This document shows, piece after piece, positions 16,088 to 42,588 of a DNA stretch of 64,000 nt; within the stretch, counting starts at the first letter, position 1; each line of letters opens with the position of its first letter. The notes beneath the pieces are model-generated. The model worked only from the letters and a program-made list of their open reading frames with translations, was not told the DNA's origin and did not search any database. Where the stretch lies: positions 62,001 through 126,000 of the forward strand of contig JAHCMK010000003.1 in assembly GCA_019192445.1 (NCBI GenBank). Direction: 5' to 3'. This DNA is from Oceanococcus sp. HetDA_MAG_MS8 (GTDB taxonomy: Bacteria; Pseudomonadota; Gammaproteobacteria; Nevskiales; Oceanococcaceae). The translations under genes and the position numbers were made by a program.

Positions 16088-16091
16088 CGCG

Positions 16092-16769: not shown

Positions 16770-16772
16770 CTA

Positions 16773-24605: not shown

Positions 24606-24626
24606 ATGCTAGAGACGCACCCAAAT

Positions 24627-24643: not shown

Positions 24644-24675
24644 TACTCGGCCCGAGTTTTTACTTGGCCTACACC

Positions 24676-25143: not shown

Positions 25144-25150
25144 GCGCGTT

Positions 25151-26012: not shown

Positions 26013-26932
26013 GCCGCATTTCCGAGAGTTGGCGCGAAGTACTCGCGCGCTGGGCCTGAGTTGTCCAGCACCACGTGACGCCCGAGGCGCGTGCCAAAGA
26101 CCTCGGCAACGCTCTCATTGCATGTTGCGGCCGAAAACTGGTCAGCAGAACGTAGACAGTGGATGAGTCGGCCCGATTCGCTCGGGTGATGCCGGTGCCC
26201 GTACAGGCAGTACTCGACAGCGTCTGCCAACTCCGGCGCCTCTCCCGCCAAGCTGGCTAGTGGTGCGCGTAGCAGTTCGATCGCCGCAGCTTCATGGCGT
26301 AGCCGCACGGGTTCTATCTGCGGTTGGCGTAGTGGCGGTACGAGTTTGCCCACGTCGTGAAGCAACGCCGCGACAACCCCCACTTCGACCTGCCATCGCG
26401 GCAATGGAACGGGTCCGACTGCCTGACGATGAAAGAGCACGGCCACTTCAATGCTATGGGCGGCAAGACCACCGGCGAATGCGTGGTGGTTTGCCCGGCT
26501 AGCGGGCGCCGTGAAGAAGCCGCATCCAACCTGTCGTAGTTCGAATGCTTGCCGCAGAAACCTCCGAAGGTTTGCGTCTTCGACCGGGGCCGCAGCAAGC
26601 TCTAGCTGCTCGTCGACTGACAGTTCGTCCGCGAGAGAATCAAGCGCAGCACTGCTGGCGCGCACGACTGGAAAGTGATCCAAGCGCCGGGTGCATAGCG
26701 CTTCAACGAGCGGCAGGCCGTCGATCAGCTCGCTGCTGCACACACCCTCGACAAGGTGATTCGGTGACTTCCCGAACTCTTGAACGTCTTCGCGATCGAT
26801 GTCGAGCGCAAATTCGCCGCGCCGCGACACCATGTGGATAATCTGCGAGCGGAGCAAGCCTTGGGAGTCGCGAAGTATCCGAAGGCGCTCGGCCACTACG
26901 CGAACGTGAGTTCCCGCAGCTAGGTATCCCAT
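26009..26932 (-). CDS. HD-domain protein resembling the TraI relaxase N-terminal domain
   Basis: 307-residue protein. The HD-type patch is clear: AGGLAAHSIEVAVLFH, then VAALLHDVGKLVPPLR (His-Asp) and EYCLYGHRHHPSESGRLIH. This order matches TraI_2-type domains of ICE relaxases, which carry an HD-like fold. The protein lacks the C-terminal part of full TraI, so it may be a stand-alone or truncated relative, or an HD phosphohydrolase. It overlaps both neighbours (13 and 4 bases). The mobile-element role is inferred. Confidence 0.65.
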   Translation of the reverse strand: MGYLAAGTHVRVVAERLRILRDSQGLLRSQIIHMVSRRGEFALDIDREDVQEFGKSPNHLVEGVCSSELIDGLPLVEALCTRRLDHFPVVRASSAALDSLADELSVDEQLELAAAPVEDANLRRFLRQAFELRQVGCGFFTAPASRANHHAFAGGLAAHSIEVAVLFHRQAVGPVPLPRWQVEVGVVAALLHDVGKLVPPLRQPQIEPVRLRHEAAAIELLRAPLASLAGEAPELADAVEYCLYGHRHHPSESGRLIHCLRSADQFSAATCNESVAEVFGTRLGRHVVLDNSGPAREYFAPTLGNAA

Positions 26933-27201
26933 TGGTCACTCTCCCAAAGCGCAAGCCGCCGCTGAAGGCGCGCCCGCAGCGTGGCCGGCGAGGCACCTTT
27001 TGAACCGGCCTCCTGACTGTGCAGCCACTCACCGACTGCCGCGGCATTGTCCGCTGAGCAGTCCGCGCCAAGTGGCATGACGAGTTCAGTGCTGTCGGCA
27101 CGCATACCAATGCTCGAAAGCAGCACTTGAATCATGCGAGCTTGAATCGTCCGTTCTGCGGACTGCCGCATCAGCTTGGTCAGTGTTTCTTCGCCGATCA
27201 T
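26920..27201 (-). CDS. hypothetical 93-aa protein of the integrase module
   Basis: 93-residue, mostly helical and slightly basic protein (MIGEETLTKLMRQSAERTIQ at the N-terminus; ATLRARLQRRLALWESDQW at the C-terminus). No known motif. It overlaps the HD-protein start by 13 bases, so it belongs to the same transcript. 72 bases separate it from the integrase stop. Confidence 0.6.
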   Translation of the reverse strand: MIGEETLTKLMRQSAERTIQARMIQVLLSSIGMRADSTELVMPLGADCSADNAAAVGEWLHSQEAGSKGASPATLRARLQRRLALWESDQWDT

Positions 27202-27273
27202 CGTGCTGCCTCCGCAAGTACTCGGCTTAGAACCAAAAAGCTCGTGTATCCAATGAATCCCAGTGTGTTGTCG

Positions 27274-28533
27274 CTAGGCATCCTCAGCCTCCTCGACGCC
27301 GCCGTGCATTGCAGCTGAAACGAAGCTATCGAAGGCGGACCCGTCACGCCGTGTGAGGTTGGGTACATAGCGCGAGTAGACGCGAAACAGCATCTCCGTC
27401 GTCGTGTGACCCAACTGCCGGGCGATCCACTCGGGTGCTTCGCCAGCAGCCAACCACAACGTCGCGCAGGTGTGGCGCATCTGATACGGCCGACGATCCT
27501 CGATGTCGAGATGCCGCAACAGGGGCTTCCAAACGCGGTTGACGAAGTTCTGGTTGTTCACGGGCCCGCCAGCACGTGTCGCAAAAACGTACTGGTCAGC
27601 AAATTGCCTGGGGTTGGCATCGAAACCTTCTGGCTTCATCTGCTCTAGCGCCTCGATCACGGGCTGCGCCAGGTCAATCTCACGCTGGGAACCATCCGTT
27701 TTGGTGTACTCCGTCCGGCCGTGGCTGTAGGTCTCCCGAACCAATAGTTGCCGGCGGTCAAAGTCGACGTGCCGCCACTTCAGCCCATGGACTTCGCCGG
27801 AGCGAAGCCCTGTGAGAAATCGCAGTGTGAGGTAAGGTCGATAGTCTTCCCGCGCAGCGTCCAGAATCTGGCGCATCTCCTCGACGGTAAACGGCTGAAT
27901 ATCCGTCTTGCGAACCTTCAGCCGCTTGACGGATGCACACGGATTCGGGGCACCGGTGATGAGCGATGCCTCTTCCATGATCATCCGGAGAATGCCGATG
28001 ACACGGTTCACGGTTGCCGGCTTGAGCTTGCGCTCGCTCTTCCCATTTCCACCGCAGGTCACGCGTTCTGCGTTCACCAAGTCCGCACGAAACGCGAGCA
28101 CCGCATCGCGATCAATCTGATCGACGGTCTGATCGCCGAATGCTGGCAACAGATGCCGATCGAGAATGGAGTCCACTGCAGTGCGATAGGAGTCCCGCCA
28201 CTCAACCTGCTTCTGGTGCTTCCACTTCTCAACCAGCTCAGAGAACAGCGGAGCAGGCTCTGTGTCGGCATGCCGTGATGCGACTTGGAGAGGGCTCCCA
28301 CCGCGCGATGGGGTATCAAAATCGCGTGCACGGCGGCTGTCAGGGAAGTAGCGGGCGTAGTCGAACACGCCCTCGACGATGTCTCCTTCGATGCGCGCCA
28401 GGACCTTCTCCATGCGCTTGCGATTGGTCGCGTTGTCAGGAAGCCGTGTGTACTCGCGACACCGCGTCTTCCGATAGCGAAAATCGAAGTACAGCATCCC
28501 CTCTCGGACTGCAATGCTACCCATGGCAAACAC
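27274..28533 (-). CDS. tyrosine-family integrase
   Basis: 419-residue phage/ICE integrase. The N-terminus has a DUF3596/Arm-type DNA-binding domain (FDFRYRKTRCREYTRLP), a core-binding domain spans about 95-200, and the catalytic domain follows with Arg in LTGLRSGEVHGLKW, the box YQMRHTCATLW, HTTTEM in QLGHTTTEM and the Tyr nucleophile in FRVYSRY. Start ATG at 28533 overlaps the excisionase end by 17 bases; ATG four codons later is possible. With the excisionase this is a complete integration/excision pair, independent of the large recombinase module. Confidence 0.93.
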   Translation of the reverse strand: MFAMGSIAVREGMLYFDFRYRKTRCREYTRLPDNATNRKRMEKVLARIEGDIVEGVFDYARYFPDSRRARDFDTPSRGGSPLQVASRHADTEPAPLFSELVEKWKHQKQVEWRDSYRTAVDSILDRHLLPAFGDQTVDQIDRDAVLAFRADLVNAERVTCGGNGKSERKLKPATVNRVIGILRMIMEEASLITGAPNPCASVKRLKVRKTDIQPFTVEEMRQILDAAREDYRPYLTLRFLTGLRSGEVHGLKWRHVDFDRRQLLVRETYSHGRTEYTKTDGSQREIDLAQPVIEALEQMKPEGFDANPRQFADQYVFATRAGGPVNNQNFVNRVWKPLLRHLDIEDRRPYQMRHTCATLWLAAGEAPEWIARQLGHTTTEMLFRVYSRYVPNLTRRDGSAFDSFVSAAMHGGVEEAEDA

Positions 28534-28753
28534 CGCCTGATGCCATCGGGATGCACAGATCGTTGTCAGCGATGGGCTGAAACATGTCGCTCTCGATGGT
28601 TTCCCAGAGATACAGAATCTTGCGCCCGCCGAACGGGCGGACGTAGTGGCGGCCCTCCAGCAGCACCGAATCCTTGAGTCGGTTGCGGATCGTGCGGACG
28701 TCGTACTTGATGCGCTCAGACAGCTCAGCTGTCGTCAAATAGGTCTTGCTCAT
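28517..28753 (-). CDS. excisionase-like small DNA-binding protein
   Basis: 78-residue protein with a winged-helix/MerR-like fold at the N-terminus (TYLTTAELSERIKYDVRTIRNRLKDSVLLEGRHYVRPFGGRKILY), typical of Xis/AlpA-type recombination-directionality factors. It overlaps the integrase start and is divergent from an XRE gene, across an operator-rich gap. Likely controls excision of the element. Confidence 0.75.
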   Translation of the reverse strand: MSKTYLTTAELSERIKYDVRTIRNRLKDSVLLEGRHYVRPFGGRKILYLWETIESDMFQPIADNDLCIPMASGGVCHG

Positions 28754-28785
28754 GCTATGTTCCCTCTCTGTGGCCTAATGCAAGT

Positions 28786-28867
28786 AGCAGGTGACACATA
28801 TTTGCATCACTTGCTGCTCATTATAAGCATCATGGGATGCATGTCAATAGCATTTGAAACATATTTG
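28786..28867. promoter_or_regulatory. operator region between excisionase and XRE genes
   Basis: Inverted repeat AGCAGGTGA (28786-28794) / TCACTTGCT (28807-28815), 8 of 9 positions matched with a 12-base spacer. A direct repeat ACATATTTG occurs at 28796-28804 (inside the spacer) and 28859-28867. Located in the 122-bp divergent gap, this is the probable binding region of the XRE protein encoded at 28876. Confidence 0.55.
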
Positions 28868-28875
28868 TTGCAGAT

Positions 28876-29115
28876 ATGATCCGATTCCGCCTCTCAGAAC
28901 AGATCGCAGACAAGCAATACCGGGACGGGGAGGTTCTTTCGGTAAAGCGGATCGCTGACGAAACGGGGCTCCACCGGATGACGCTGTCGCGTCTGATGAA
29001 CCAGAAGGGGTACAGCACCAGCACTGAAGTGCTGGACAAGCTATGCAACTACTTTGAGTGCGGCATTTCAGACTTGGTCGAGCACATTCCAGAAAACAAG
29101 AGCACCGACGAGTAA
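28876..29115 (+). CDS. XRE/Cro-CI-type regulator of the integrase module
   Basis: 79-residue helix-turn-helix protein (GEVLSVKRIADETGLHRMTLSRLMNQKGYSTSTEVLDKLCNYFECGISDLVEHI), resembling small Cro-like regulators of the YozG/Cro-CI type that take control of their own operon. Divergent from the excisionase, so it probably sets the integrated/excised balance. The ATG at 28876 is the only sensible start. No toxin partner is evident. Confidence 0.8.
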   Translation: MIRFRLSEQIADKQYRDGEVLSVKRIADETGLHRMTLSRLMNQKGYSTSTEVLDKLCNYFECGISDLVEHIPENKSTDE

Positions 29116-29217
29116 TAACTCCGCTGTCGCGATACTCAGCTTGAGATGGTCACTCCTGAGGACGGCGCGAGACTTCACGAGCGCGCCTAGCAAACCGGCA
29201 GGTTCAAACGCGCCGAG

Positions 29218-29679
29218 CTATGCCAGTCGTATCCCGGGCGTCGGGTATAGCAGCAAACTATCCGACCGGATTCCCATAACCGCCGGCGGCTTAGCGCCAA
29301 TGAACCACGGCCTTGGTGCCAGAGCGAGTGGCATTGCTGTCCAATCTAAAGCGACGTTTCTTGGGCCCTGGCCTGACGCGAATTCATCGGCAGTCTTGTC
29401 GCCTGGGTAGCCGGCAAGCCGATCAAAAAATCGAAGTTCGTCCACTGAGAGGAGTGCTTGGCCAACGTGCTGCACACCTTCTTCGGCGAAAACGAGATGA
29501 GCCATCAGCCAATCGCCAACGCACCAGTGGAGCAGGCAGATTTGAGCAACCGCAATTTGGATCTCTACGTCACCGGCTGGATCAGGGTCTAGACAAAGGT
29601 CTAAGCCATACAGTGGGAGATCGTTCGCTGGGTGCGTGGCTTGTTTTGGGAATGCTCGCAGATCAATGAGTGTGGTCAC
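29218..29679 (-). CDS. hypothetical protein, about 153 aa
   Basis: A minus-strand frame open from 29709; the GTG at 29679 has a GGAG 7 bases upstream and is the better start. The product is hydrophobic in places (VEIQIAVAQICLLHWCVGDWLMAHLVF) and includes VDELRFFDRLAGYPGDKTADEFASGQGPR. Length and composition are protein-like but no family is recognised. It lies isolated between the integrase regulator and the WYL gene. Could be a remnant. Confidence 0.4.
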   Translation of the reverse strand: MTTLIDLRAFPKQATHPANDLPLYGLDLCLDPDPAGDVEIQIAVAQICLLHWCVGDWLMAHLVFAEEGVQHVGQALLSVDELRFFDRLAGYPGDKTADEFASGQGPRNVALDWTAMPLALAPRPWFIGAKPPAVMGIRSDSLLLYPTPGIRLA

Positions 29680-29709
29680 CGCGTTCTCCAGTAGATAGGG
29701 AGAACACAT

Positions 29710-30038
29710 TCTCTGTCAGACCTCCCCATTCGCATGGCGGGAAAGTGCCAAACACCGGTCAGCGGCCACCACTGAGCGGGGCTTCGATATTCCAAAGACG
29801 CAGGGTCACCTCTATTCCTGCCATGCGACAAGCAGCGACCTACTCAGTTGCACGAGTTTCATCTTCTGTGAACTGGTGACAGAAGCCCTCATCTGAGGCG
29901 ACAAACTTACGGACAGCACATGCCAAGCTGTATGGCCTGAAACTCAGTGCAGTGTGGGGTTGCACAGCTGCGATACAACATAGATCGCCCATGCGATAGC
30001 ACCAGCACCGCCCGGCAAACACGCCACGGGGTAGCCCA
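29710..30038. other. gap without a supported gene
   Basis: About 330 bases between the orphan frame and the WYL regulator. A Cys-rich minus-strand frame (29840-30076) runs through it but overlaps the WYL coding end and lacks protein character. No repeat, terminator or RNA gene was recognised. Confidence 0.4.
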
Positions 30039-30860
30039 TCAGGTCGACCCGAACGTCGCCCAAGGCGCCAAGTCATCGGCGTTCATCAACACGAGCTGGT
30101 AATCCGGTGGCTGGTGAGCGTCGATATGAGTCGCCACGCGTAGGTCCTGGAGTACAAACGGGATCAGGGCCCGCCGACATCGAATGATGCGTCCTGCGGT
30201 CCCGCGGAACAGTTCGTTGCGGATCACCTGTTCCTGGCCGCTCGTAAGGCCCGGGTGGGCCATCAGGCGCAGATCGGCCGACTCGCTCCAGTCGACGTCT
30301 TCTGGGACCTCGGCGACGGCAGGCTCACCGTCGTGTGCCAGGAGCATGCGGCCCAAATTGAAGTTGCGGTGCTCACCGCGCAGCACGTCGAAAGCGCGCA
30401 CATGCCAGCGCCGGCCGCCACGGACGAACGCATGGGGGTAGATGGTGCGCTCCACACCCTCAGGACGAGTCATGGAGTGATAGATCACCAGCACGCCGTT
30501 GCCAGCGGTGGCAGCCGTGTGCAGAGCGCGGTGCAACTCGGCATCCACATCGGTCAGATCACGGTGGGCGTCTTCAACCACCGCCACCGACCGGCCGGCC
30601 ATCTCCATGTAGGCGTTGAACCCGCCCTCGAACACCGCCGGTTTGAACTTGGGCCCAGCGATCCAGGTGCCGCGGTCCCCGTTGCCGGCCGGCTTCACGG
30701 TGGTCGGGTGAGACTCCCTGATCTCGGCCAACATCCGACTGGCCTGCACCTGCTGAACGCCGAAGTGCTCCCGGAGGCGTTGGTTGCTGATACGGCCCTC
30801 GTAGAGCAGAACTGCTTCCATGAAGCGCTGACGCTCCTCGCTGTTATTGGGCCTGGTCAT
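30039..30860 (-). CDS. WYL-domain transcriptional regulator (BrxR/CapW-like)
   Basis: 273-residue protein: N-terminal winged helix (about 5-60, EERQRFMEAVLLYEGRISNQRLREHFGVQQVQASRMLAEIRE), a central WYL domain with RRWHVRAFDVLRGEHRNFNLGRML, and a C-terminal WCX-like region. This three-part layout is that of BrxR/CapW repressors that keep defence systems silent until an unknown ligand binds the WYL domain. It is divergent from the Wadjet operon, with a 35-bp palindrome in between. The ATG at 30860 is used; the frame is open to 30956, but that would run into the operator. Confidence 0.82.
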   Translation of the reverse strand: MTRPNNSEERQRFMEAVLLYEGRISNQRLREHFGVQQVQASRMLAEIRESHPTTVKPAGNGDRGTWIAGPKFKPAVFEGGFNAYMEMAGRSVAVVEDAHRDLTDVDAELHRALHTAATAGNGVLVIYHSMTRPEGVERTIYPHAFVRGGRRWHVRAFDVLRGEHRNFNLGRMLLAHDGEPAVAEVPEDVDWSESADLRLMAHPGLTSGQEQVIRNELFRGTAGRIIRCRRALIPFVLQDLRVATHIDAHQPPDYQLVLMNADDLAPWATFGST

Positions 30861-30913
30861 GCGATGGGCATGTTGTGATCTGGATCGGTCGGCACTGCAG
30901 GGGCTTTCCTGTT

Positions 30914-30948
30914 CGTATCTTATAAGATAAGTTATCTTAAATGATACG
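30914..30948. promoter_or_regulatory. 35-bp palindromic operator between WYL regulator and Wadjet operon
   Basis: Centred at 30931. The core AAGATAAGTTATCTT (30924-30938) is a perfect 7-1-7 palindrome, and the outer arms CGTATC (30914-30919) and GATACG (30943-30948) are symmetric about the same centre. An additional perfect palindrome TATCTTATAAGATA (30916-30929) overlaps the left half. Likely the WYL repressor site, covering the promoters of both directions. Confidence 0.75.
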
Positions 30949-30967
30949 CCCTCCACAACGAAGCCGC

Positions 30968-31369
30968 ATGGCCATCGAACTGCTCGTCGATAACCGCAAA
31001 CTGCCCAGCCGCCTCATCGACGTCCTGAAGCGTGTGCCTAAGCCCGGATTCGTCTGCGAGTCCTTTGCGGACTCCATCCGGAAGGTAGTGCAACGCCTGC
31101 GCCACGGTGACGACCTTCTGGTGCCGATGTTCGGCGGGTACTGGCTGCCCGGAGAGCTCGCGGTAACGCCTCCGCGTGAGTCAGCGTGGTGGGCCTGTAA
31201 GAGCAATATGGAATTCAACACGATTGTCAGCCCAGACTTGATCCAAGCGCTACGCAACCCAGGAGCTCTGGATCGGGACGACGAGGTCAACGAGAAGCGC
31301 TTCGCCGACTGGAAGGAATATGCCTACCGGCTGGGGCCGGCGGCGCGGGGCCCCAATGAACATCCGTGA
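30968..31369 (+). CDS. unknown 133-aa protein, first gene of the Wadjet operon
   Basis: 133 residues from ATG 30968 (142 from ATG 30941, which lies inside the operator and so is less likely). Sequence features: IELLVDNRKLPSRLIDVLKRVPKPGFVCESF, then LVPMFGGYWLPGEL and a basic-acidic C-terminus. No known domain. It overlaps the jetA start by 14 bases and is separated from the WYL gene by the operator, so it is co-expressed with jetABCD. Standard Wadjet type I operons as I know them have four genes, so this would be an added component. Confidence 0.65.
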   Translation: MAIELLVDNRKLPSRLIDVLKRVPKPGFVCESFADSIRKVVQRLRHGDDLLVPMFGGYWLPGELAVTPPRESAWWACKSNMEFNTIVSPDLIQALRNPGALDRDDEVNEKRFADWKEYAYRLGPAARGPNEHP

Positions 31370-32822
31370 GCGCGCCAACCGTTACGAGCGGCTGAGCAAG
31401 CATGCGGCGTGGACGCTGCTGAAGGCCTCGAAGTCCTCCTACACCCTGGCTTTCCTCGAGTCCCTGTTCGTCGATAACTCGGAAGTGCCGGTGGCTCAAG
31501 CGCATACCGCGCTGAACGCCTACCTGGCCGATTGGCAGTCCGGGTGGGCCGACACAGACGTCAACGCCAAGGTGCTGCTCCGGCAGTGGACTGCGGCCGG
31601 GTACATTCGGGATCAGGATGGCCACTACGTAATGACCGACGCCTGCGCGACGGCGATTTCGTTTGCCAGCGGATTGGATCGGCGAGAGATCGCGGCCACC
31701 GCCACGCACCTGAAGATCATGCAGGACTCCGTGGACGACCTGCTCTACGCGCTCTCCGAGGATCAGAGCGAGCGCAGTGACATCGTGCTGGCCAAGATGG
31801 AAGAACTGCGGGCCGAGCACGAGCGCATCATGGCGGGAGACTTCGAGCTGCCGAGCGACCAGGAGCAGAAAGAGGCCGTCCGCCACATCCTGGCGGCTGC
31901 CACGCGGCTGGCGGGCGACTTCAGGCTGCTGGATGACCAGTACCGGGAGCGTAGTCGCCTGCTGTTCGAGCAGATCAACGCCAGCGACGATGGGCGCGGC
32001 GCGGTGATCGAGCAGGCACTGGACAACGAGGACGCTATCAAGCGGACGCCAGCGGGAATGGCCTTCGAAGGCTTCTATGACCTGCTCGCCAACTCCCATT
32101 TGCGCCAGGAGTTCCAGGCCAAGCTCAAGCGCCTGTTGGAATCACCCGCGGCACGCTTCCTCGAACCCGGCGAGAGGCGTTTTCTCAAACGCCTGACATC
32201 CGAGTTGATGGCCGAGAGTGGGCGGGTTCGCAGCAGGCGCAAGCGCATGGGTGCTGCGCTGTCGGGCTACGTGCAGACGGCCAACCGAGCAGACCGCGTG
32301 GAGATCGATCGGATGCTCGCTGAGGTCAAACGTCTTGCGCTGGAAATCGCCAAGGGCGTGGATGTGTCGCCGCACCACAAGATGCGGTCGGTAGCCATCA
32401 ACACTGGCAGTCTGGCGCTGTACTCGCCGGACGCGTTGCGTCTGGCAGCGCCCAAGCACGTGAACTTTGACGTCGAGGTTGTCACCCACGAGGTCGATGA
32501 CGACCTAAGCGACGAGCAGATCGAGCGCATGTCGACCTTCCAAGTACTAGCCCTGGCCAAGCGTATGGCCGAGTTCATCGCGTCCCAGTCCGGACAGACG
32601 GCAACCGTTGGCGATTACGCCAAGGCGTCTCTCATCACCGGCGGGCTGGAAGAGCTGATTGGGACGTTCCGGGTGGCCAAGGCAGTCGGCGGGCTGGACC
32701 TGCAGATGACCGAGGAGATTGAGTTCTGGACCAAGGCCGGCGAGCGCTGCCGCGCGACAGTGCCGGCGATCCTCATGGGAACGGACCGGTTCCCGGATGA
32801 CCTACGTGAGCTGAACCTATGA
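31356..32822 (+). CDS. jetA: Wadjet JetA (DUF3375, kleisin-like)
   Basis: 488-residue DUF3375 protein, the MksF/kleisin-like subunit of the Wadjet SMC complex. It is largely helical, with an acidic coiled region (EELRAEHERIMAGDFELPSDQEQ) and LAKRMAEFIASQSGQTATVGDYAKASLITGGLEELIG near the C-terminus. JetA bridges the JetC SMC arms. The ATG at 31356 is preferred over the frame start at 31320. It overlaps the upstream unknown gene by 14 bases and jetB by 4. Confidence 0.9.
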   Translation: MNIRERANRYERLSKHAAWTLLKASKSSYTLAFLESLFVDNSEVPVAQAHTALNAYLADWQSGWADTDVNAKVLLRQWTAAGYIRDQDGHYVMTDACATAISFASGLDRREIAATATHLKIMQDSVDDLLYALSEDQSERSDIVLAKMEELRAEHERIMAGDFELPSDQEQKEAVRHILAAATRLAGDFRLLDDQYRERSRLLFEQINASDDGRGAVIEQALDNEDAIKRTPAGMAFEGFYDLLANSHLRQEFQAKLKRLLESPAARFLEPGERRFLKRLTSELMAESGRVRSRRKRMGAALSGYVQTANRADRVEIDRMLAEVKRLALEIAKGVDVSPHHKMRSVAINTGSLALYSPDALRLAAPKHVNFDVEVVTHEVDDDLSDEQIERMSTFQVLALAKRMAEFIASQSGQTATVGDYAKASLITGGLEELIGTFRVAKAVGGLDLQMTEEIEFWTKAGERCRATVPAILMGTDRFPDDLRELNL

Positions 32823-33535
32823 GTGGTGATGACCTGACGACGCCTGTGACCGTTGATGCGGTCCCGCCCGAGCAGAACCGCGGGACCACAGACGTTGAAG
32901 CCGCCGGCGTGAGTCTGGGCGACTCCGCTGAGATCACGTTACTGCGAAAGGCGCAGCAGTGGTTACTGGGTCACGGTGTGGTCTACCACTCGAAGCACCC
33001 GGAGTTGTACCGTGCATTGACCGGCAGCCAGGCCTCCGTACGCACCCTGCTCAACGAGCTGGGTCTCTCCATGACGGTGGAGGAGACGGTGGGCGTGGTG
33101 ATGCTGCGCTTGCCGACCCCCGACGATGACGAGGACGAGGATGCCCACCCCCTGGTTCGGCGCTCGACCCTGTCGCTGACCGATTCGCTGACGGCTGTCG
33201 TGCTGCGTGACTACTACCGAGAGCGCCAGGCCCAGCAGGACATCACCATCCAGGTCGACTTAGAGACGCTGCAACAGCGCCTGCAGCCGTTCATGGCCAT
33301 CTACGACAGCAGTGAGGCGCTGTTCAACAAGAAGGTCGGCGCGGCGGTCGATCGATTCAACAAGTGGCACATTCTGAACAAGGTTCGCGGTCAGGATGAC
33401 GTCTACGAGATCACGCCCGTCATCGCCATCGTAGTGGACGCCCGGTGGCTGACCGGGCTGGTGAGCGAGTTCCGGGAGCTCGCCGAGAAGAAAGCGGGCG
33501 CGAACGCCGTCAATGAGGAGGCAGCCGATGGCTGA
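32819..33535 (+). CDS. jetB: Wadjet JetB (DUF4194, MksE-like)
   Basis: 238-residue DUF4194 protein, counterpart of the MksE/KITE subunit that binds the kleisin. Recognisable stretches are LLRKAQQWLLGHGVVYHSKHPELYRAL, LRDYYRERQAQQDITIQVDLETLQQRL and FNKWHILNKVRG, in the tandem winged-helix layout of KITE proteins. It overlaps jetA by 4 bases and jetC by 8. Confidence 0.88.
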   Translation: MSGDDLTTPVTVDAVPPEQNRGTTDVEAAGVSLGDSAEITLLRKAQQWLLGHGVVYHSKHPELYRALTGSQASVRTLLNELGLSMTVEETVGVVMLRLPTPDDDEDEDAHPLVRRSTLSLTDSLTAVVLRDYYRERQAQQDITIQVDLETLQQRLQPFMAIYDSSEALFNKKVGAAVDRFNKWHILNKVRGQDDVYEITPVIAIVVDARWLTGLVSEFRELAEKKAGANAVNEEAADG

Positions 33536-36500
33536 CAGCACGCTCGGCGTCGCCGACCCAACCGAACTCCAGAGCTACACGCTCGAGGACCTAGTCCCAG
33601 ACCTGCAGTACGGACTCACTGCGCTCAGCGTCCACAACTGGGGGTCATTCAGCGGTGGCTGGAGTGCGCCCATCGACCCCCAGGGAACGCTGATCTGCGG
33701 GGATACAGGTGCAGGCAAATCCACGCTGGTCGATAGCATGCAGGTGCTGCTCCTCAAACCCACGCAGACCCGATTCAACACTGCGGCCAGTTCCGAGGAT
33801 GCTAAAGACCGTTCCCTGGTGACCTACGTCCGTGGAGCCTACGACTCCGAGCGGGACGGGGCACGCACGATCCCCAAGATGATGCGCACCGGTGCCACCT
33901 ATTCAGGCGTGAGTGCCCGGTACGCTGGCACGGACGGAACCGACGTCACATTGATGGCGCTGTTCTGGATCGCCGGCCCGGGTATGGCACAGAGCGATGT
34001 GAAGCGCCTGTACGTGCTCGCACGGCGCAAGCTAGAGCTGCCCGAAGTCCTGGAAGCGGGGGTCTCAAACTCAGCCGGTATCGACCGATCTTGGCTGGAA
34101 GCCCGGTATGGCAATGACACCTCGGTGCAGTTCTTCCAGAAGTGGGACGACTATGAGGCTGCGTACCACACGGCGCTGGGCCTGGAAAACCCTAAGGCGC
34201 CGGCGCTAATCGTCAAAGCGATGGGGCTCAAGGAGGTCCGCGACCTCACCGCGTTGATCCGCGACTTCGTGCTCGAGCCGGGTGAGGCGGCGGCGGTTGC
34301 GATCGACGCTGTGCAGGAATTCCGCGAGCTGCAAGGCATATACCAGGAGATGGCGGTCGCCGAGCAACAGGAAGCCAAGCTGGCGCCCCTAGAAGGTTAC
34401 AAGGAGCGCATCGAGGCGTTGCAGGACCGCTTGGATGCGCTCACGGCTCAGTTGGGCGCTGTACCCGCCTATGTGTCAGGGCAGGCGCTCGAACTGGTTC
34501 GGGGGCGCTTGGCGAAGCTGCGGGACGACCTGCAGCGCCAGAAGGGCATCGTGGCCGACGCCAAGGCGGAGGTCGATGCACTGGAAGTGCGGGCAGAGGA
34601 AGCCCAGAGTACCTATCTGCTGTCAGGCGGCAATGACATCGCTGAACTCGAGGGCAAGATTGCACGGCTGGATGAGCAGATCGGGGGAGCCTCAGCCGCC
34701 GCGAAGGACTGTATGTCCCAGGCCGCCGGCCTGGGCGTGGAGCTAGCCGGTGACGGGTTGACCAAGGAAGCGTTTACCGAAATTCGTGCACGTGCGGCGG
34801 CGATCGCAACCGACGCCGACGCACTGCGACAGCAGGCGGCCGATGAGTTCGGCGATAAGTACGCCAAGAGTCAGAACCTCGCAGAGCAAAAAGCGTCGGT
34901 CGACGAGGAGTTGGCGCAGATTGTTGGAAAGGGCCGGACGTCCAACATCCCAGAGGCGTTTCAGTCGATTCGAGACCAGTTGGTCGGGGCATTCGCTCTG
35001 GATCCTGAAACCTTGGTGTTCCTCGGGGAGATGGTGCAGGTTAAGCCGCAGGACGCGCCGCTGCGTGGGGCCATCGAGCGAGCGCTGGGCAAGTCGCGGC
35101 TGGACCTGCTGGTGCCCGAAAGCGCGGTCGGAAGCATCAACGGCTGGGTCAACGCGCGACACCTGGGTGTGGACTTCCGGTTCCATGGCGTGCGGGAAGA
35201 CGTCGCCCCGAACAGGGACTTCAAGCGTGACGGCTACATGCGGCTTTTGGATTGGCGGGACCACCCATACCGTGAGGCCGCAAAACGGCAGCTCATTTCG
35301 TACGACAAATCGATTAAGGCCACGCCACAGGAGGTCGCCGAGACTGCCAACGCCATGACGGCCGAAGGCCTGATGAGCTACCGGGCAGGAACCTACGACA
35401 AGCGCGACAGCAAGAGGATCGACGACGAGGACAACTGGTACACCGGACATAATGGCGCGGTGCGGCGTGATCTGCTGGCTCGACGGTCATGCGGGCTTGA
35501 TGAGGCACTGAAGTCCGCAAACAGCGACCGCGACGCAGCACATCGTGCTCAGACGGCGATCGGGCACCGGATTCAGATCATGCAGGTGCTGAGTGAGCTG
35601 ACGTGGGACCGCGTTGATGCGGGCAGCTTGATCGCACAAAAGCGAGAACGACAGTCGGATATTGACTACCTCAAGAACAACGACGTAGACCTGGCAGCGG
35701 CAAAGGCGGCAGTAGACACGGCGAAGCAGGAGCTGCGAGCAAACCGGGAGGTGCTTCAGGACTCCCGGTCCGCCCAGACCCGCATCGAGAGCGCGATCGA
35801 ACAGGACGAAGGACGTGAGGCTCGTTTCGCGGAGACTGCCGGCTCCGAGCCCATCGACGCCGAGATCGCTGAAGCGCTCCGAGCCCACGAGATGGACGTG
35901 ACCTGGGAGAAGCTTGAGGACGCCGGTGGCGTCGAACGGCGTTTGCGTGACGCTGTCGCGGCCGAGAGCCAGGGCGAGTCCGACAAGCTGAGCGACGCGA
36001 GCGTAGCCGCGTGCAGGGTCATGGCCACGTACAAGGAGAAGTGGCCGGCCCACGCTGGCGATCTAGGCGACAACCTTGCGTCCATGGAGGGCTACCTAGG
36101 GCTGCTGGAAGAGATTCGTCGCGACCGGTTGCCGAAGATCAAGGATCGCTTCACCGAGAAGCTGAACCACAACGCGCTGCAGTCGCTCGAGGCTGTGCGG
36201 GCGTCGATCGAGCAGCAGCAGGAAGACATCGAGCAGAGAATCGACGACGTCAATCACGTGCTGTGTCGCGTCGAGTTCGAGCCGGGCACCCGCCTGAACG
36301 TCATCCCGACCGCCCAGCGGTTCGTGGAGGTGGACGACTTCGAAGCGAAGGTGGATGCAGTGCGTGCGGTCAGCCTGTCGGAGGATCCGAAGAAGCGCTA
36401 TGCCGCGTTGGAGGTGGCCATGAATCATCTGGCCACGTTCACGGATCCCAGCCGGCTTTCAAACCTGGGCTCACTACGCTTGCTGGATGCCCGCTACAGG

Positions 36501-36977
36501 ATGGAGTTTTCGTCCAACAAGACCGACATCCAGACAGGCGAGGTGCTGTCCTCACGCGGCAGTACGGGAGGCTTGTCGGGTGGCCAGCGCGAGAGCTTCA
36601 GCAGCTTCATCGTAGCCGCCAGCCTGGCGTACGCGTTGACGCCGGCCGGGGGCAAGGCCCCGCGGATGTCGACGGTATTTCTGGATGAGGCGTTCTCACG
36701 CACGTCGACGGCCATGATCAAGCCCGTCATCGCCGTCTTCCGTGCTCTGCGACTGCACATGAATCTGCTGACGCCCTACAAGGAACTCGACACCAGTGAG
36801 CAGGCGACTCGGGCCGTGGTTCTAGTCGAGATGAACGACCGGACAAAGACGAGCTCTCTCAAGCACATCACATGGGAGAAATTCCTAGAGGTTCGGCACG
36901 GCAAGGGGATCGAGCGGCTGCCGGATGGTGAAGTTCGTTGGAGGAAAGAAGGTGGAGCCGATGAAGCTGCCGGATGA
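33528..36977 (+). CDS. jetC: Wadjet JetC (SMC-like ATPase)
   Basis: 1149-residue SMC-type ATPase. Walker A GDTGAGKSTLVDSM lies near residue 60; long coiled-coil segments (about 270-430 and 660-900) flank a central hinge-like region (about 450-640). The C-terminal head has the signature LSGGQRESFSSFIVAASL and Walker B STVFLDEAFSRTS. In Wadjet, JetABC extrude DNA loops on small circular DNA and deliver it to JetD for cleavage. The ATG at 33528 follows GAGGAG (33515-33520). Closest role: MksB-type SMC in defence. Confidence 0.93.
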   Translation: MADSTLGVADPTELQSYTLEDLVPDLQYGLTALSVHNWGSFSGGWSAPIDPQGTLICGDTGAGKSTLVDSMQVLLLKPTQTRFNTAASSEDAKDRSLVTYVRGAYDSERDGARTIPKMMRTGATYSGVSARYAGTDGTDVTLMALFWIAGPGMAQSDVKRLYVLARRKLELPEVLEAGVSNSAGIDRSWLEARYGNDTSVQFFQKWDDYEAAYHTALGLENPKAPALIVKAMGLKEVRDLTALIRDFVLEPGEAAAVAIDAVQEFRELQGIYQEMAVAEQQEAKLAPLEGYKERIEALQDRLDALTAQLGAVPAYVSGQALELVRGRLAKLRDDLQRQKGIVADAKAEVDALEVRAEEAQSTYLLSGGNDIAELEGKIARLDEQIGGASAAAKDCMSQAAGLGVELAGDGLTKEAFTEIRARAAAIATDADALRQQAADEFGDKYAKSQNLAEQKASVDEELAQIVGKGRTSNIPEAFQSIRDQLVGAFALDPETLVFLGEMVQVKPQDAPLRGAIERALGKSRLDLLVPESAVGSINGWVNARHLGVDFRFHGVREDVAPNRDFKRDGYMRLLDWRDHPYREAAKRQLISYDKSIKATPQEVAETANAMTAEGLMSYRAGTYDKRDSKRIDDEDNWYTGHNGAVRRDLLARRSCGLDEALKSANSDRDAAHRAQTAIGHRIQIMQVLSELTWDRVDAGSLIAQKRERQSDIDYLKNNDVDLAAAKAAVDTAKQELRANREVLQDSRSAQTRIESAIEQDEGREARFAETAGSEPIDAEIAEALRAHEMDVTWEKLEDAGGVERRLRDAVAAESQGESDKLSDASVAACRVMATYKEKWPAHAGDLGDNLASMEGYLGLLEEIRRDRLPKIKDRFTEKLNHNALQSLEAVRASIEQQQEDIEQRIDDVNHVLCRVEFEPGTRLNVIPTAQRFVEVDDFEAKVDAVRAVSLSEDPKKRYAALEVAMNHLATFTDPSRLSNLGSLRLLDARYRMEFSSNKTDIQTGEVLSSRGSTGGLSGGQRESFSSFIVAASLAYALTPAGGKAPRMSTVFLDEAFSRTSTAMIKPVIAVFRALRLHMNLLTPYKELDTSEQATRAVVLVEMNDRTKTSSLKHITWEKFLEVRHGKGIERLPDGEVRWRKEGGADEAAG

Positions 36978-38124
36978 CGTGCGTCGGCGCTTGCAGGCGC
37001 TGGAGTGGGACAACCGCCAGAATTTGAGCGGGCGCATGCTCGGTACCCGCGTGTGGCCCATTCGTGTCGCACTGAACTCGCCAAGCGGCGTGAAAGCGAT
37101 CGACCGCCTGACGGAGTTTCGAGAGTTCGCGCTCGCCTGGAAAGCCCCGGACGTCGCCCAATGGGTCGCTACCGAGACACGGAACCTCCGTGGCCTGGGT
37201 GCGCAGGAGGTCCCGACCCACCTGATTCTAGAGACCCTTGAGGATCTGGTGGGATTCCTTGGAGCGCCAGCGGCATATGAGTGGGCGGCCATTCGGGAGG
37301 GCCTAGAGCGCGTCGATACGCGGTGGTGCGACACTTGGCGGCACTTTGTATCGGATTTAGTGGAGCTCGATCAGGGTACGGTCCAGGACATCTCTCGAGC
37401 TGTGGTCCAGCTCAAATCCATGCGCGGATGTGTGGAGTACGTGCGCGAGCTGCCGCTCGATGGGGTTGGCACGAAGGTCGTAGAACAACACGAGCGTCTA
37501 ATTGGGCAGCTGGTGGACCTGCACTACTGCGGAGAGGTGGCCGAGGCCGGTGGGTTGTTGGCCTGGCTCGGTGTTCGGCACCCGCCGAAGGATTGGTTGA
37601 TGGTCCGACCGCTGTGCGAAGCGGTCAGGCAGCGGTTCCACGGCGCCGACAGCATGCGAATGGGTTGGCAGACGTTGGCAAAGCTGAACTGGCCTGCCTC
37701 AACGTTGTTCGTGGTCGAAAATGCAACCAGCGTGTTCGCGTTGCCAGAGGTGCCAGATGGAGTCGCAGTGGCTGGAACAGGCGGCAACATCGGGTGGTTG
37801 GAATCGGCTGCTAAGCGATTTCGACGGGTTATCTACTGGGGCGACCTCGACTACGACGGATTGGCGTTTCTCTCGCGGGCAAGGCGATTGGCACCGGGAG
37901 TCACCTCCATGCTGACATCGCTAGGCGTCTACGCGGAACACGGTGGGCGGGCGATCGCGTGCGACTCCAAACGGGAGGCGGTGATCGACGAGACATTTCT
38001 TACAAAGGATGAGCGGCGGCTGCTGTGCGCGCTGGTCGAGGGTGGTGTTTGGATGCGACTGGAGCAGGAGAAGCTGCCTGGCAATCTCGTAGCCTCAGCC
38101 GCGTCACTGCTCGCGAAAGGTTAG
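36961..38124 (+). CDS. jetD: Wadjet JetD (DUF3322/DUF2220, Toprim nuclease)
   Basis: 387-residue protein with an N-terminal DUF3322 domain and a C-terminal DUF2220 Toprim-like domain. The Toprim acidic residues are visible: Glu in FVVENATSVFALP and the DxD of YWGDLDYDGLAFLSRARRL. JetD is the topoisomerase-VI-like nuclease that cuts closed circular DNA once JetABC is loaded. ATG at 36961 follows GGTGGAG; the frame is open from 36925. Completes a type I Wadjet operon. Confidence 0.92.
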   Translation: MKLPDDVRRRLQALEWDNRQNLSGRMLGTRVWPIRVALNSPSGVKAIDRLTEFREFALAWKAPDVAQWVATETRNLRGLGAQEVPTHLILETLEDLVGFLGAPAAYEWAAIREGLERVDTRWCDTWRHFVSDLVELDQGTVQDISRAVVQLKSMRGCVEYVRELPLDGVGTKVVEQHERLIGQLVDLHYCGEVAEAGGLLAWLGVRHPPKDWLMVRPLCEAVRQRFHGADSMRMGWQTLAKLNWPASTLFVVENATSVFALPEVPDGVAVAGTGGNIGWLESAAKRFRRVIYWGDLDYDGLAFLSRARRLAPGVTSMLTSLGVYAEHGGRAIACDSKREAVIDETFLTKDERRLLCALVEGGVWMRLEQEKLPGNLVASAASLLAKG

Positions 38125-38160
38125 TGGGCGTGAGGTGTGTACGGCGACCAACCCTTTTGT

Positions 38161-38179
38161 GCCGATTCTGTTGAAAAAC
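38161..38179 (+). repeat. IS1182-family left inverted repeat
   Basis: Outer end of the insertion sequence nearest jetD. It pairs with 39758-39776 at 18 of 19 positions. Confidence 0.88.
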
Positions 38180-38247
38180 GCGATGACCATTCGAGTAGTG
38201 CGCACGCGTTGCCTGATCCATCGATCGAAAACGGAGCTCAGCTTCCC

Positions 38248-38272
38248 CTTTCGGGTCTAGGCTTCCCGAAAG
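38248..38272. terminator. hairpin downstream of the transposase gene
   Basis: Arms CTTTCGGG (38248-38255) and CCCGAAAG (38265-38272) with a 9-nt loop, lying between the left repeat and the transposase stop. A T-tract follows on the plus strand 7 bases later. It may block readthrough from the jetD side. Confidence 0.5.
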
Positions 38273-38297
38273 CCGCCTGTTTTTCGTCCAATCTCCG

Positions 38298-39683
38298 TCA
38301 TCCAGGCACACCAATCCTGTAATCCGGCGGCGGTCTGGCAACGAGCTTGGCCATCCGTCGCAGATTTTGAGCGGTCGCCGCCATCACGAATTCGTCGGCA
38401 GCGCCCGACAGGCCTCGCAGTCGTAGCCGCTCCAACCCAAGAATCCGCTTGAGGTGCGCGAAGCGCATCTCGACTTTCTTGCGCTCACAGCGTGAGCGCC
38501 GGTACTCGTCAGACTTGCTGATCTCGCGAGCGACGTTACGGGCATCTTCATGGATGCTGCGCGCAATCTTCCTGGTTGGTGTGCTCGGGCAGCATTGCTG
38601 CTTGAGTGGGCAAACTCGGCAGTCGTAGGTGCTGGAGCGATACAGCACCGTCCCGGCTTTGGTGATGCCACTGCGCGGTTTGGAAAACTGCCGGCGTCCC
38701 GGGATCAGCGCATTGCCCTGCGGGCAGCGATATTCATTGGCCTCGCCATCCCAGACAAAGTCGCTGCTGGGTATCGATCCATCGGTGCGCTGATGTTTCT
38801 CCCAAACCGGGATGTGCGGCTCGATGCCTTTGTCATCGACCAGCCAGGACAGCATCTTGGCATTGCCGTAAGCCGTATCTGCAACGAGCTTTGTCGGCTG
38901 AATGCCGCAGCGCGCCTCGACGCGATCGATCATCGTCTTCGTCGATTCCACTTCGGCGATACGGTTGGACGGCGTGGCCTCGACATCGAGGATGACGCCA
39001 TGCTCGATGTCGATCAGGTAATTGGTGGAATACGATAAGAACGCCGGACCGCCGGTCGCAGCCGTCCACTGAGATTGCGGATCGGACAGTGACACCGACT
39101 TCCGAGCCTCCAGCGCAGCGCCGTCCCCCAGCGCCTCGAGATACTCACGGACGGCGCGGCTACGTTTCTCGGGCGCACCCCAGTCGATGGGCTCTGCTCC
39201 GGGCACGCCGCGCTGCCGACTGGCGTCAGCCGGAATCAGGCTGGCATCTACGGCGAAGCCTTCACCTTTGACCAAGCCGACTTGCATACATCGGTCCACG
39301 ACCTGATCGAAGACCCAGCGCAGCGTCCCGCTGTCGCGAAAGCGGCCATGACGATTCTTGGAGAAGGTCGAATGGCTTGGCACTGCGCCGTCCAGCCCCA
39401 GCCGGCAAAACCAGCGGTAGGCAAGATTGAGATGGACCTCGTCGCACAGCCGACGCTCGGAGCGAATGCCATAGCAATAGCCAACGATCAGCATCCGCAC
39501 CATCAGCTCTGGATCGATTGAGGGGCGGCCAGTGTGGCTGTAGTGGTCAGCGAGATGTACTCGCAGCCCCTCCAAGTCCAGGCACGCATCGATCTGGCGC
39601 AGCAAATGGTCTGCCGGGACATGCGCTTCGAGTGAGAACTCGTAGAACAGCGCCGATTGGCTGTCCGAAAGCGAGCCCATCAT
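38298..39683 (-). CDS. IS1182-family DDE transposase
   Basis: 461-residue transposase. N-terminal DUF772-like region (GRPSIDPELMVRMLIVGYCYGIRSERRLCDEVHLNLAYRWFCRL) and a DDE domain: FAVDASLIPADASR, VADTAYGNAKMLSWL and a C-terminal RRSRCERKKVEMRFAHLKRILGLERLRLRG stretch. Cysteine patch CRVCPLKQQCCP lies just before the last Asp/Glu. Intact, so the element may still be active. Confidence 0.93.
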   Translation of the reverse strand: MMGSLSDSQSALFYEFSLEAHVPADHLLRQIDACLDLEGLRVHLADHYSHTGRPSIDPELMVRMLIVGYCYGIRSERRLCDEVHLNLAYRWFCRLGLDGAVPSHSTFSKNRHGRFRDSGTLRWVFDQVVDRCMQVGLVKGEGFAVDASLIPADASRQRGVPGAEPIDWGAPEKRSRAVREYLEALGDGAALEARKSVSLSDPQSQWTAATGGPAFLSYSTNYLIDIEHGVILDVEATPSNRIAEVESTKTMIDRVEARCGIQPTKLVADTAYGNAKMLSWLVDDKGIEPHIPVWEKHQRTDGSIPSSDFVWDGEANEYRCPQGNALIPGRRQFSKPRSGITKAGTVLYRSSTYDCRVCPLKQQCCPSTPTRKIARSIHEDARNVAREISKSDEYRRSRCERKKVEMRFAHLKRILGLERLRLRGLSGAADEFVMAATAQNLRRMAKLVARPPPDYRIGVPG

Positions 39684-39757
39684 CGGGCATTATTCCATTG
39701 AAAAACAATTATTTAATTATATCTCGGCACGCCTAAACAAGGGCAGGATTGCGCAGG

Positions 39758-39776
39758 GTTTTTCAACAGAATCTGC
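39758..39776 (-). repeat. IS1182-family right inverted repeat
   Basis: Outer end of the insertion sequence nearest the methyltransferase gene. It pairs with 38161-38179 at 18 of 19 positions. Confidence 0.88.
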
Positions 39777-39793
39777 CAAAAGCGGCCGGTCAC

Positions 39794-40678
39794 TCAATGC
39801 TTGCAAGCGACGAGTAGTGTCCATGTCGTCGAACCGAACTCCGGGCTCAGCTTCAAGAGCTCCTGTGCGTCAATCTCAAACCCTTGGCTCTCAAGCAGCG
39901 AGGCGTAGCTGTGCGAGAAGGTTCGTTCTTGCCCGAACGGGCGGGATTCGGTTTCAGTCGCGCTATCGAGATCGTCTGCAACGGGCTCGAGCAGTGCAAT
40001 CGCGACTGGCGTACGGGTGATGGCCTTGATCAAGGCGAGCAGCTCGGTTTGGCTGAAATACTCGAGCACGCCGCCGATTGTCAGGTAGACCGTCTGCGGT
40101 TTTGCGTTCTCAAGCGCCCAGCTCGTGGCTTCGGCGGCCTCAAACGATGTGTCGGGATCATTGTTCGCTGCACTGTTCCGCTCGACCTGTTCCGGGCTGA
40201 GGTCGAGGCCGATCAGACGATCCAGTCCCGGCAAGCGCTCTCGCAATCTCGGCATAAGTAGCGCTTCACCGCAGCCAATTTCGACCAAGGTGTTGTAGGT
40301 GCCAGGGTGGGCTTCGACGTGGCTGATGAGCATGGCGAAAATTTGCGAATGCCCCGCTTCCCACATTGCCCAGAAACGATCTCGAGTCGCTTGATGGTGA
40401 GCAGTTCCCGATTGTTCGCGCCAGAACCACTGTTGCAGTGCGGACATATCTTGCGGGCGATTTTTTCGCCGACATCGATGTGCCCACGCCGCGATGATCT
40501 GACGGTCGACAAAACCTGGATAGCCGGATAGCTTGCCCTGTCGAATGAGTTGCGCCCGGGGCGCGGCGAAGATTGAGAACAGTTTGCCGAGAAAGACCCG
40601 CAGCAGACGCTTGACGGGGTTATTCGGCAAGGAGTTCGGCCAATACACCTCGGTGGCCTTGTTCGGTGAGTGGGTCAT
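39794..40678 (-). CDS. class I SAM-dependent methyltransferase
   Basis: 294-residue protein. The SAM motif I is LVEIGCGEALL, followed by LIGLDLSPEQVERNSAAN and VYLTIGGVLEYFSQTELL. Hydrophobic and basic N-terminus but no clear signal peptide. Last gene of the long copper operon, 15 bases past the ceramidase-like gene. Substrate unknown; a lipid or membrane-associated substrate is possible from the neighbouring genes. Confidence 0.75.
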   Translation of the reverse strand: MTHSPNKATEVYWPNSLPNNPVKRLLRVFLGKLFSIFAAPRAQLIRQGKLSGYPGFVDRQIIAAWAHRCRRKNRPQDMSALQQWFWREQSGTAHHQATRDRFWAMWEAGHSQIFAMLISHVEAHPGTYNTLVEIGCGEALLMPRLRERLPGLDRLIGLDLSPEQVERNSAANNDPDTSFEAAEATSWALENAKPQTVYLTIGGVLEYFSQTELLALIKAITRTPVAIALLEPVADDLDSATETESRPFGQERTFSHSYASLLESQGFEIDAQELLKLSPEFGSTTWTLLVACKH

Positions 40679-40693
40679 CAGAAACCAGAGTCC

Positions 40694-41371
40694 TTATTTC
40701 GTGACGTCGGCAAAAGAATCGAACTGCCGATAGAACAATTCGATTTGCAAGAGAAAACCGGCAGACAGCAGATGCCAGATCGCATGACCTGACAGCCAGT
40801 GACGCGAGGGATCACACAGGTGCGGCACGTCATCCAGCGCCCAGGCGATGACGGCGGCCCCGCCTGACGACCACGCCAGCAGGTAGTGCCGCCACTCGAT
40901 CTGAGCTCGGTGCTTGTGTGCCAGCCAGCATTCGATATAGCAGCACGGCATCGCAATGAGGAGAACGGGCAGCGCCCAATCGGGCCGCAGGCTGACAATG
41001 CCGATCATGAGAGCAGGCAAACCCAACGCGGTGCCCATCTGTGTGGCCGTGCCGATTTCCAGCCAGCGCCGGAGATTGAGTGCTGTCATCACGCCTGTGA
41101 TTCCGTAGATCGATGCCCAATCCGCCATGCGCCCCCAGCTCAGATTGGTAGCGTGGTAGGCGGATGACCCCACCGCGATGACGATTGCCAGATACCCGAA
41201 CCAGTGCGCTCGGCTGCCGTTGCGTGGGCGGCTCAGCAGCCAAAGCCCGACCAGCAGATAGGCGAGATTGCTGGCCGTATTGCCGGGCTCCACGACCCAG
41301 GCGCACAAGTTGGCCTCGCACACCTTGTCGAGCTGGCCGGGCTCTGTGAGGTCGCGCCATGGGCAGCTCAC
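40694..41371 (-). CDS. ceramidase / CREST-superfamily membrane hydrolase
   Basis: 225-residue polytopic membrane protein (about six to seven segments). The CREST-type residues are present: SSAYHATNLSWGRMADWASIYG near the middle and HWLSGHAIWHLLSAG near the end, giving the Ser/His/Asp and two His zinc ligands of alkaline-ceramidase-like enzymes. The start is the GTG at 41371, which overlaps the permease stop (GTGA); the longer frame to 41446 runs inside the permease. A hydrolase of this type in a copper cluster is unusual. Substrate unknown. Confidence 0.75.
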   Translation of the reverse strand: MSCPWRDLTEPGQLDKVCEANLCAWVVEPGNTASNLAYLLVGLWLLSRPRNGSRAHWFGYLAIVIAVGSSAYHATNLSWGRMADWASIYGITGVMTALNLRRWLEIGTATQMGTALGLPALMIGIVSLRPDWALPVLLIAMPCCYIECWLAHKHRAQIEWRHYLLAWSSGGAAVIAWALDDVPHLCDPSRHWLSGHAIWHLLSAGFLLQIELFYRQFDSFADVTK

Positions 41372-42588
41372 GCGAGCAATCCGCGTATGACCAAACCACC
41401 CACCAGCCAGACGATGGACAGCGTTACCAGCACAAGCCCAAGCCACTCGGCAGCGCTGCGCGCGGTGTGCTCGCCATCCCCGCCGTCAGACGCATCGCGC
41501 CCCTGCCACCAGAGCCAGGCGAGCGCGCCGCTGCCAGCCAGAAATAGCAAGTTCAGCCAGAACCCGTAGTTCGGCTCGAAGAATTCACGGTCAACCACGC
41601 TGACTGATCCCGGCTCTGGCAGCAGGTCAAGCGCGAGCAGGCCGTAGTGCATCAGCAGTGAGACCGCCACGAGACCGGCCAGCAGCATGCCGAGGATGTA
41701 GAGCGCCATCTTCCAGCCGTAATACTCGGCGTTGATCCGAAGCACCGGCCAAACGACCAGATCGGAGAAGATGAAGGCCATCACCCCGGCAAAGCTGACG
41801 CCCTGACCGAACAGCAGCGCGGCCAGCGGGATATTGCCCATGGAGCCGATGAAGGTGAAAAACGCTGCCACCGGCCCGACAATGGTTTGCAGCAGCGTGG
41901 CCGCAAACCCAGGCTGGCCGCTGTCGCCGGAGCCGACGAACAGGGTCTCGAAGAATGCATCCGGCACGAACGCTGCGATCACGCCTGCCACGGTAAATCC
42001 GATCAGCACGTCCTTCCAGACCATCCGCCATTCCATGACGTAGGTCTGCCCGATCGCCCGCCAGCCGGCCAGAGTGCCGATCGCCTTGCGCCAGGAGGCG
42101 CCATCATTGCCGGATCTGTCGCCATCTTGTTCGAACCGCTGGCGGGTTCGTTCGATCAGCCGCTTCGGCTTTGTCACGCGAATGAACAGCCAGCAGAAGC
42201 CGATCAGCAGCAGGCCGCCGACGTACTCGCCCACCACGAACTGCCAGCTCAGGAACAGCGCGATAACGATGCCGAGCTCGATCACCAGATTGGTGGAGGC
42301 GAGCATGAACGCCATCGACGGTGCCAAGCCCGCGCCTTTCTGAAACAGGGCGCGCGTGGTGGACAGCGCCGCAAAGCTACACGAGCTCGAGATGAAGCCG
42401 AAGAATGTGCCGAGCGCCATGGCACGCGGACCGTCGCTGCCCATGGTGCGCTGCATCTGCGCGCGTGTGATGCCGGCCTGAATCAGGCTGGAAATCAGAT
42501 AGCCCAGCGCAAACGCCCACAGCGCCATCCAGAAGAATCCGACGCTGGTGTGGGCGGCCTGGCCCCAGGCTTCGAGGAAGTTGTTCAT
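41368..42588 (-). CDS. DUF318/ArsP-like permease
   Basis: 406-residue permease with eight or more membrane segments in two related halves. It has the family-like FFGFISSSCSFAALSTTRALFQKGAG (Cys in a conserved Ser/Cys stretch) and the matching second-half GPVAAFFTFIGSMGNIPLAALLFGQGVSFAGVMAFIFSDL. Relatives export methylarsenite or other metal species. Placed directly after cusA (ATGA overlap), so it may add a further efflux route to the copper/silver system. Substrate not established. Confidence 0.8.
   Translation of the reverse strand: MNNFLEAWGQAAHTSVGFFWMALWAFALGYLISSLIQAGITRAQMQRTMGSDGPRAMALGTFFGFISSSCSFAALSTTRALFQKGAGLAPSMAFMLASTNLVIELGIVIALFLSWQFVVGEYVGGLLLIGFCWLFIRVTKPKRLIERTRQRFEQDGDRSGNDGASWRKAIGTLAGWRAIGQTYVMEWRMVWKDVLIGFTVAGVIAAFVPDAFFETLFVGSGDSGQPGFAATLLQTIVGPVAAFFTFIGSMGNIPLAALLFGQGVSFAGVMAFIFSDLVVWPVLRINAEYYGWKMALYILGMLLAGLVAVSLLMHYGLLALDLLPEPGSVSVVDREFFEPNYGFWLNLLFLAGSGALAWLWWQGRDASDGGDGEHTARSAAEWLGLVLVTLSIVWLVGGLVIRGLLA

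Follow-up and report, generated by a model that had tools for sequence, protein, structure and literature searches.

A type I Wadjet operon with a divergent CapW/BrxR-type WYL gene, an intergenic palindrome and an additional first gene

The locus

The stretch of DNA analysed (64 kb, called the window here) carries the four genes of a type I Wadjet system, with a small additional gene ahead of them on the same strand. A gene for a WYL-domain regulator is read in the opposite direction, and an imperfect palindrome lies between the two. The features are as follows.

30039..30860, minus strand: WYL-domain transcription regulator of the CapW/BrxR family, 273 aa (Pfam WYL 1e-9; PDB 1.5e-24 to 1.6e-9; tree)
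30914..30948, no strand: 35-bp imperfect palindrome, putative operator, between the WYL gene and the 133-codon gene
30968..31369, plus strand: orphan protein of 133 aa, first gene of the operon (coding score; overlaps jetA by 14 bp)
31356..32822, plus strand: jetA, DUF3375, kleisin-like subunit (Pfam 2.4e-82; PADLOC JetA1 2.4e-111)
32819..33535, plus strand: jetB, DUF4194, MukE/KITE-like subunit (Pfam 2.8e-33; PADLOC 3.8e-40)
33528..36977, plus strand: jetC, SMC-like ATPase (PADLOC 5.2e-268)
36961..38124, plus strand: jetD, Toprim nuclease subunit (Pfam JetD_C 8e-29; PADLOC 1.6e-90)

The jetABCD set (31356-38124) is complete, as an earlier note on this DNA had stated, and all four proteins match Pfam and/or PADLOC models of type I Wadjet. 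JetABCD finds and cuts small circular DNA. The number of genes, their order (jetA-jetB-jetC-jetD) and their families (DUF3375, DUF4194, SMC-like and DUF3322/JetD_C) agree with the type I system. The window's operon differs from it in having an additional first gene and in its distance from known members: the nearest full-length JetA and JetC that we found share only about 33-36% identity with the window's proteins, and the window's Wadjet thus represents a thinly sampled lineage. The match to the JetA model spans residues 1 to 488 of 488. Because it begins at residue 1, the start of jetA is sound and the 14-bp overlap with the preceding gene (31356-31369) is real.

The same genome holds a second complete type I Wadjet (L070; contig 5, 9915-11330), which has neither a WYL gene nor the 133-aa gene. 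It is preceded by two small frames that we take to be a DUF433/PIN-type toxin-antitoxin pair.

The regulator and the palindrome

The assignment of the divergent gene as BrxR/CapW-like was upheld by the Pfam WYL match and by its relatives in the PDB. Five PDB sequences match at E<=1, namely two CapW, one BrxR and two named 'WYL domain-containing protein'. The alignments run along the wHTH-WYL-WCX architecture (7tb6 over residues 9-268, and BrxR 7t8k over residues 10-262). The gene starts at ATG 30860, or possibly farther upstream at GTG 30956. In the alignment, the Sm CapW contact positions R32, S42, Q45 and S47 are occupied by N, Q, Q and S in the window's protein. Q39 and S41 of the latter align with Q45 and S47, which are reported to contact DNA in Sm CapW (Blankenchip 2022).

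CapW is described as a repressor whose binding sites are palindromes of 19-24 bp lying over the -10 site; for the BrxR of Acinetobacter, the described site is a pseudo-palindrome of 25 bp over the -35 box. The arrangement in the window resembles those of CapW (CBASS) and BrxR (BREX) in that a wHTH-WYL protein with PDB-detectable likeness stands next to the operon of a defence system and a palindrome lies in the gap between them. It differs in that the regulator stands beside Wadjet, that two of the four compared DNA-contact positions are changed, and that the putative operator has its own sequence and is longer than the published sites (35 bp, compared with 19-25 bp).

The palindrome pairs at 15 of 17 positions around one base. 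The two perfect palindromes said to be nested in it were found at 30916-30929 (14 bp) and 30923-30939 (17 bp, central G). Dinucleotide shuffling of the 107-bp gap (3000 times) or of a 60-bp core (3000 times) produced nothing like the 35-bp palindrome. Three palindromes of the same quality occur in the 64-kb window, and a genome search that allowed up to 3 mismatches found the sequence itself once. No sigma-70-like promoter around the palindrome passed the scan.

The additional first gene

The 133-codon frame ahead of jetA is gene-like in its codon usage. The part of the frame outside jetA has a log-likelihood of 0.247 per codon, a value that is near the median of true-gene windows and that 0.2% of shadow-frame windows attain. 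Each of the remaining five frames over the gene scores below 0 and has 1 to 5 stops. Since the frame is coding by codon usage, it is not an artefact. An in-frame ATG at 30941, inside the palindrome, may be its true start. Co-translation with jetA can fairly be inferred from the 14-bp overlap, its sole basis.

What did not hold up is the weight given to this gene as a possible conserved companion of jetABCD. Among the 102 loci considered besides the window (82 had JetA and no less than 1500 bp of upstream DNA), where the reachable JetABCD are at most about 36% identical to the window's, no frame resembled it at E<=10. Pfam, PADLOC, PHROGs and the PDB hold no family for the protein, and NCBIfam gave only a chance match (0.14). 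Searches of plasmids and phages (tblastn) and of viral contigs found no relative, and the protein matched only itself in 369 genomes of the class and in 85 of the order. Its structure, predicted without relatives, was uninformative (mean pLDDT 37).

Among 398 genomes of the phylum, four besides its own matched at E 3e-4 to 8e-3. We rejected these as chance matches: each is short and has internal stop codons, and about four are expected at E<=0.01 per genome. In the best of them (G703), the frame of the match meets a stop shortly beyond the beginning of the matched segment. The genes just before jetA elsewhere, small or larger, were considered as relatives and proved unrelated; they are presumably CbiD-like, BluB-like and FolE-like.

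It appears unlikely that the 133-aa protein functions as a genuine fifth component of this Wadjet lineage (as adaptor, as inhibitor of JetD or as partner of the WYL protein), kept by selection through its coupling to jetA. That reading would suit a true coding frame that overlaps jetA and comes first after the putative operator, and in so thinly sampled a lineage the system's own close relatives were not seen. Against it stand the lack of any relative upstream of the other JetA genes surveyed, the other WYL-Wadjet loci, where the first clear gene is jetA itself, and a review that describes four subunits as the needed set in B. subtilis. Most likely, the 133-aa protein is the product of a lineage-specific accessory gene that was captured under the promoter of the operon, and it is no required Wadjet subunit.

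At several other loci, mostly of family f208, the type I jetA comes after other genes (L074, L075, L077, L079, L081, L085, L089, L095 and L098), which we take to be genes of cobalamin synthesis or transport (CbiD, BluB, CobS and BtuF). L094 and L096 have similar overlapping frames ahead of jetA. A fixed chromosomal Wadjet inside a metabolic cluster would be odd.

WYL genes beside Wadjet elsewhere

JetA was matched in 35 of 369 class genomes, and PF11855 in 41 of 398 phylum genomes, with 38 over the cut-off. A two-motif JetC scan of genome contigs gave 32 loci, and two plasmid records were added. In all, 103 loci including the window were considered; after removal of 3 without JetA and 17 with less than 1500 bp upstream, 83 remained. 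In this sample, which is not an even one because 11 of the 32 JetC-scan loci are from Photorhabdus or Xenorhabdus, and in which some JetC-scan records may be of the same species as other genomes, a WYL frame lies within 1500 bp upstream of jetA at 7 of the 83 loci (the window, L015, L024, L026, L033, L036 and L078). The WYL gene is divergent (head-to-head) at all seven. The other 76 have no divergent WYL gene within 1.5 kb. Two further WYL genes lie farther off, at 2.5 kb (L205) and 3.5 kb (L100). Because BrxR-like proteins (E<=1e-10) occur in 44 of the 369 class genomes, a head-to-head WYL gene within 1.5 kb should, by our estimate, arise by chance far more rarely than 7 in 83. Scans of viral contigs with JetC and with the WYL protein gave no matches.

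The pairing of WYL and Wadjet is not new; regulation by the WYL protein is likely, and such regulation is known in outline. Picton et al. (2022; PMC9122601) list Wadjet among the systems co-localised with BrxR homologues, that is, the same regulator family and the same defence system. Their neighbours were counted within 50 kb downstream, and the parts of their text at hand describe no Wadjet locus; here the two are immediately head-to-head, and one clade has a palindrome embedded in the promoter. The proposal of the earlier note that a WYL protein governs Wadjet is the best reading and is supported by the comparative data, but it is not a first.

At L078, the WYL gene lies between a divergent jetABCD and the zorA gene of a Zorya system, so that one WYL regulator may serve two systems.

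In a tree built from 26 WYL sequences, the window's protein and its nearest relative (39% identity), which is encoded on a Synechocystis plasmid, form a pair (100/99). The plasmid gene diverges from a DUF5716-type jetA that is followed by a shortened jetB (a fragment). A second group is formed by L015, L024, L026, L033 and L036 together with the long-branched L100 (95/91). The L078 protein stands apart, and Wadjet-linked WYL genes thus occupy three places in the tree. The linkage label requires 3 changes, compared with a mean of 7.7 for shuffled labels, and none of 500 shuffles was as low. From these placements and label changes, Wadjet seems to have taken up the CapW/BrxR regulator family more than once.

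The gaps of L015, L024, L026, L033 and L036 were aligned. In all five, a TTGACA box, an ATCA..TGAT palindrome and a TAAT-like box are conserved at promoter spacing, and the palindrome sits between the two boxes of the jetA promoter. Two phyla, Pseudomonadota and Thermodesulfobacteriota, are represented among the hosts, and the outer flanks of the gaps differ; part of the likeness reflects common descent, as the WYL proteins of four members are closely related. Taken singly, the best-scoring palindrome of the gap is seldom equalled in shuffles at L024 and L036 and is not significant at L015, L026 and L033; nor does it coincide with the aligned palindrome in every case. No palindrome better than shuffles occurs in the gaps of L078 and the Synechocystis plasmid.

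The palindrome of the window differs from that of this sister clade and contains the in-frame ATG 30941, both of which would fit a site for another factor, or an RNA hairpin in the 5' leader, rather than a WYL operator. We consider this very unlikely. The recognition helix differs between the two groups in the alignment, and different residues there predict a different site, so the difference in operator sequence is as expected; moreover, the reported BrxR and CapW sites are themselves promoter palindromes.

The WYL protein could also control only itself or distant genes and stand beside jetA merely through a shared defence island. BrxR-family genes are common (the 44 class genomes above) and also adjoin Cas, SbcCD-like and Zorya genes, and the co-localisation of Picton et al. 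takes in neighbours up to 50 kb away. Such a loose association is improbable given the head-to-head orientation at seven of seven positive loci, the strong palindrome exactly between the window's genes and the conserved block at the jetA promoter of the sister clade. Control of Wadjet by the adjoining WYL protein remains our preferred reading.

The surrounding island

JetC was found in none of three related genomes (one of the same genus and two of the same family), in a search run without a positive control. When positions 24500-44400 of the window were compared with these three genomes, the matches began at query base 18137 (about position 42636 of the window), and the only other matches were short secondary ones in the same part. 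Since the relatives match only from there on, the stretch from 24500 to about 42636 was probably acquired. It includes two genes for mobility proteins.

27274-28533: integrase
38298-39683: transposase

No direct repeats marking an end of the island were found. Farther upstream, the gene at 20978-24073 encodes a protein of 1031 aa that has no PADLOC family and matches phage integrase only below the threshold.

The window also contains a complete type II CBASS (11856-17627; JAB, E1-E2, cyclase and phospholipase effector by PADLOC). It has divergent CapH- and CapP-like genes, and the CapP-like protein matches PDB 7t5t at 1e-54.

A model for switching

Taken together, we favour, at a probability of roughly 0.6, a type I Wadjet operon that is held under a divergent WYL repressor of the CapW/BrxR type, is released by single-stranded DNA (ssDNA) and yields the 133-aa protein as a co-induced product. 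A dimer of the WYL protein would bind the 35-bp palindrome between the start codons and shut both divergent promoters. Upon DNA damage, or upon entry of a phage or plasmid, ssDNA would fill the WYL domain, and the repressor would let go and the operon be switched on. The first product would be the 133-aa protein, with translation probably coupled to that of jetA, and JetABCD would follow. This chain draws on reports that CapW and BrxR keep repressing until ssDNA is bound (PMC13373217, 2026) and that Wadjet limits plasmid transfer by conjugation (PMC12287153). Several observations given above weigh against the model: the scan that recognised no promoter around the palindrome, the two changed contact positions, the rarity of a divergent WYL partner among JetA loci (also lacking at the genome's second Wadjet), and the gaps elsewhere whose best palindrome is not significant by itself or no better than shuffles.

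Far more speculative, and doubtful in our view, is a version in which the WYL protein detects a conjugative plasmid by its single strand as it arrives (or detects damage), so that the anti-plasmid nuclease is armed solely upon entry of foreign DNA; the 133-aa protein would be a novel subunit or brake of Wadjet, induced together with it. In that case, the island would combine two switches that respond to ssDNA, with CapH/CapP acting on CBASS and the WYL protein acting on Wadjet.

CapH/CapP and CapW-like proteins are both described as ssDNA-responsive classes (PMC13373217). Their presence close together suggests that the CBASS and the Wadjet of the window may answer to the same signal. The literature searched says little about the way in which Wadjet is turned on, and within it only Picton et al. 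(2022) tie the system to WYL proteins. The recurrent head-to-head WYL gene and the conserved palindrome at the jetA promoter offer a directly testable case, and a system that keeps plasmids out would be well served by ssDNA as its signal.

Related WYL genes have other neighbours as well. At L140, a WYL gene is divergent from two paired genes whose domains are SbcD-like and SbcC-like. The BrxR-like WYL genes of one clade diverge from a RecA gene, as tested with Pfam at L155, with neighbours of the same size at L145, L148, L150-L154 and L156. A WYL regulator beside recA fits the sensing of DNA damage.
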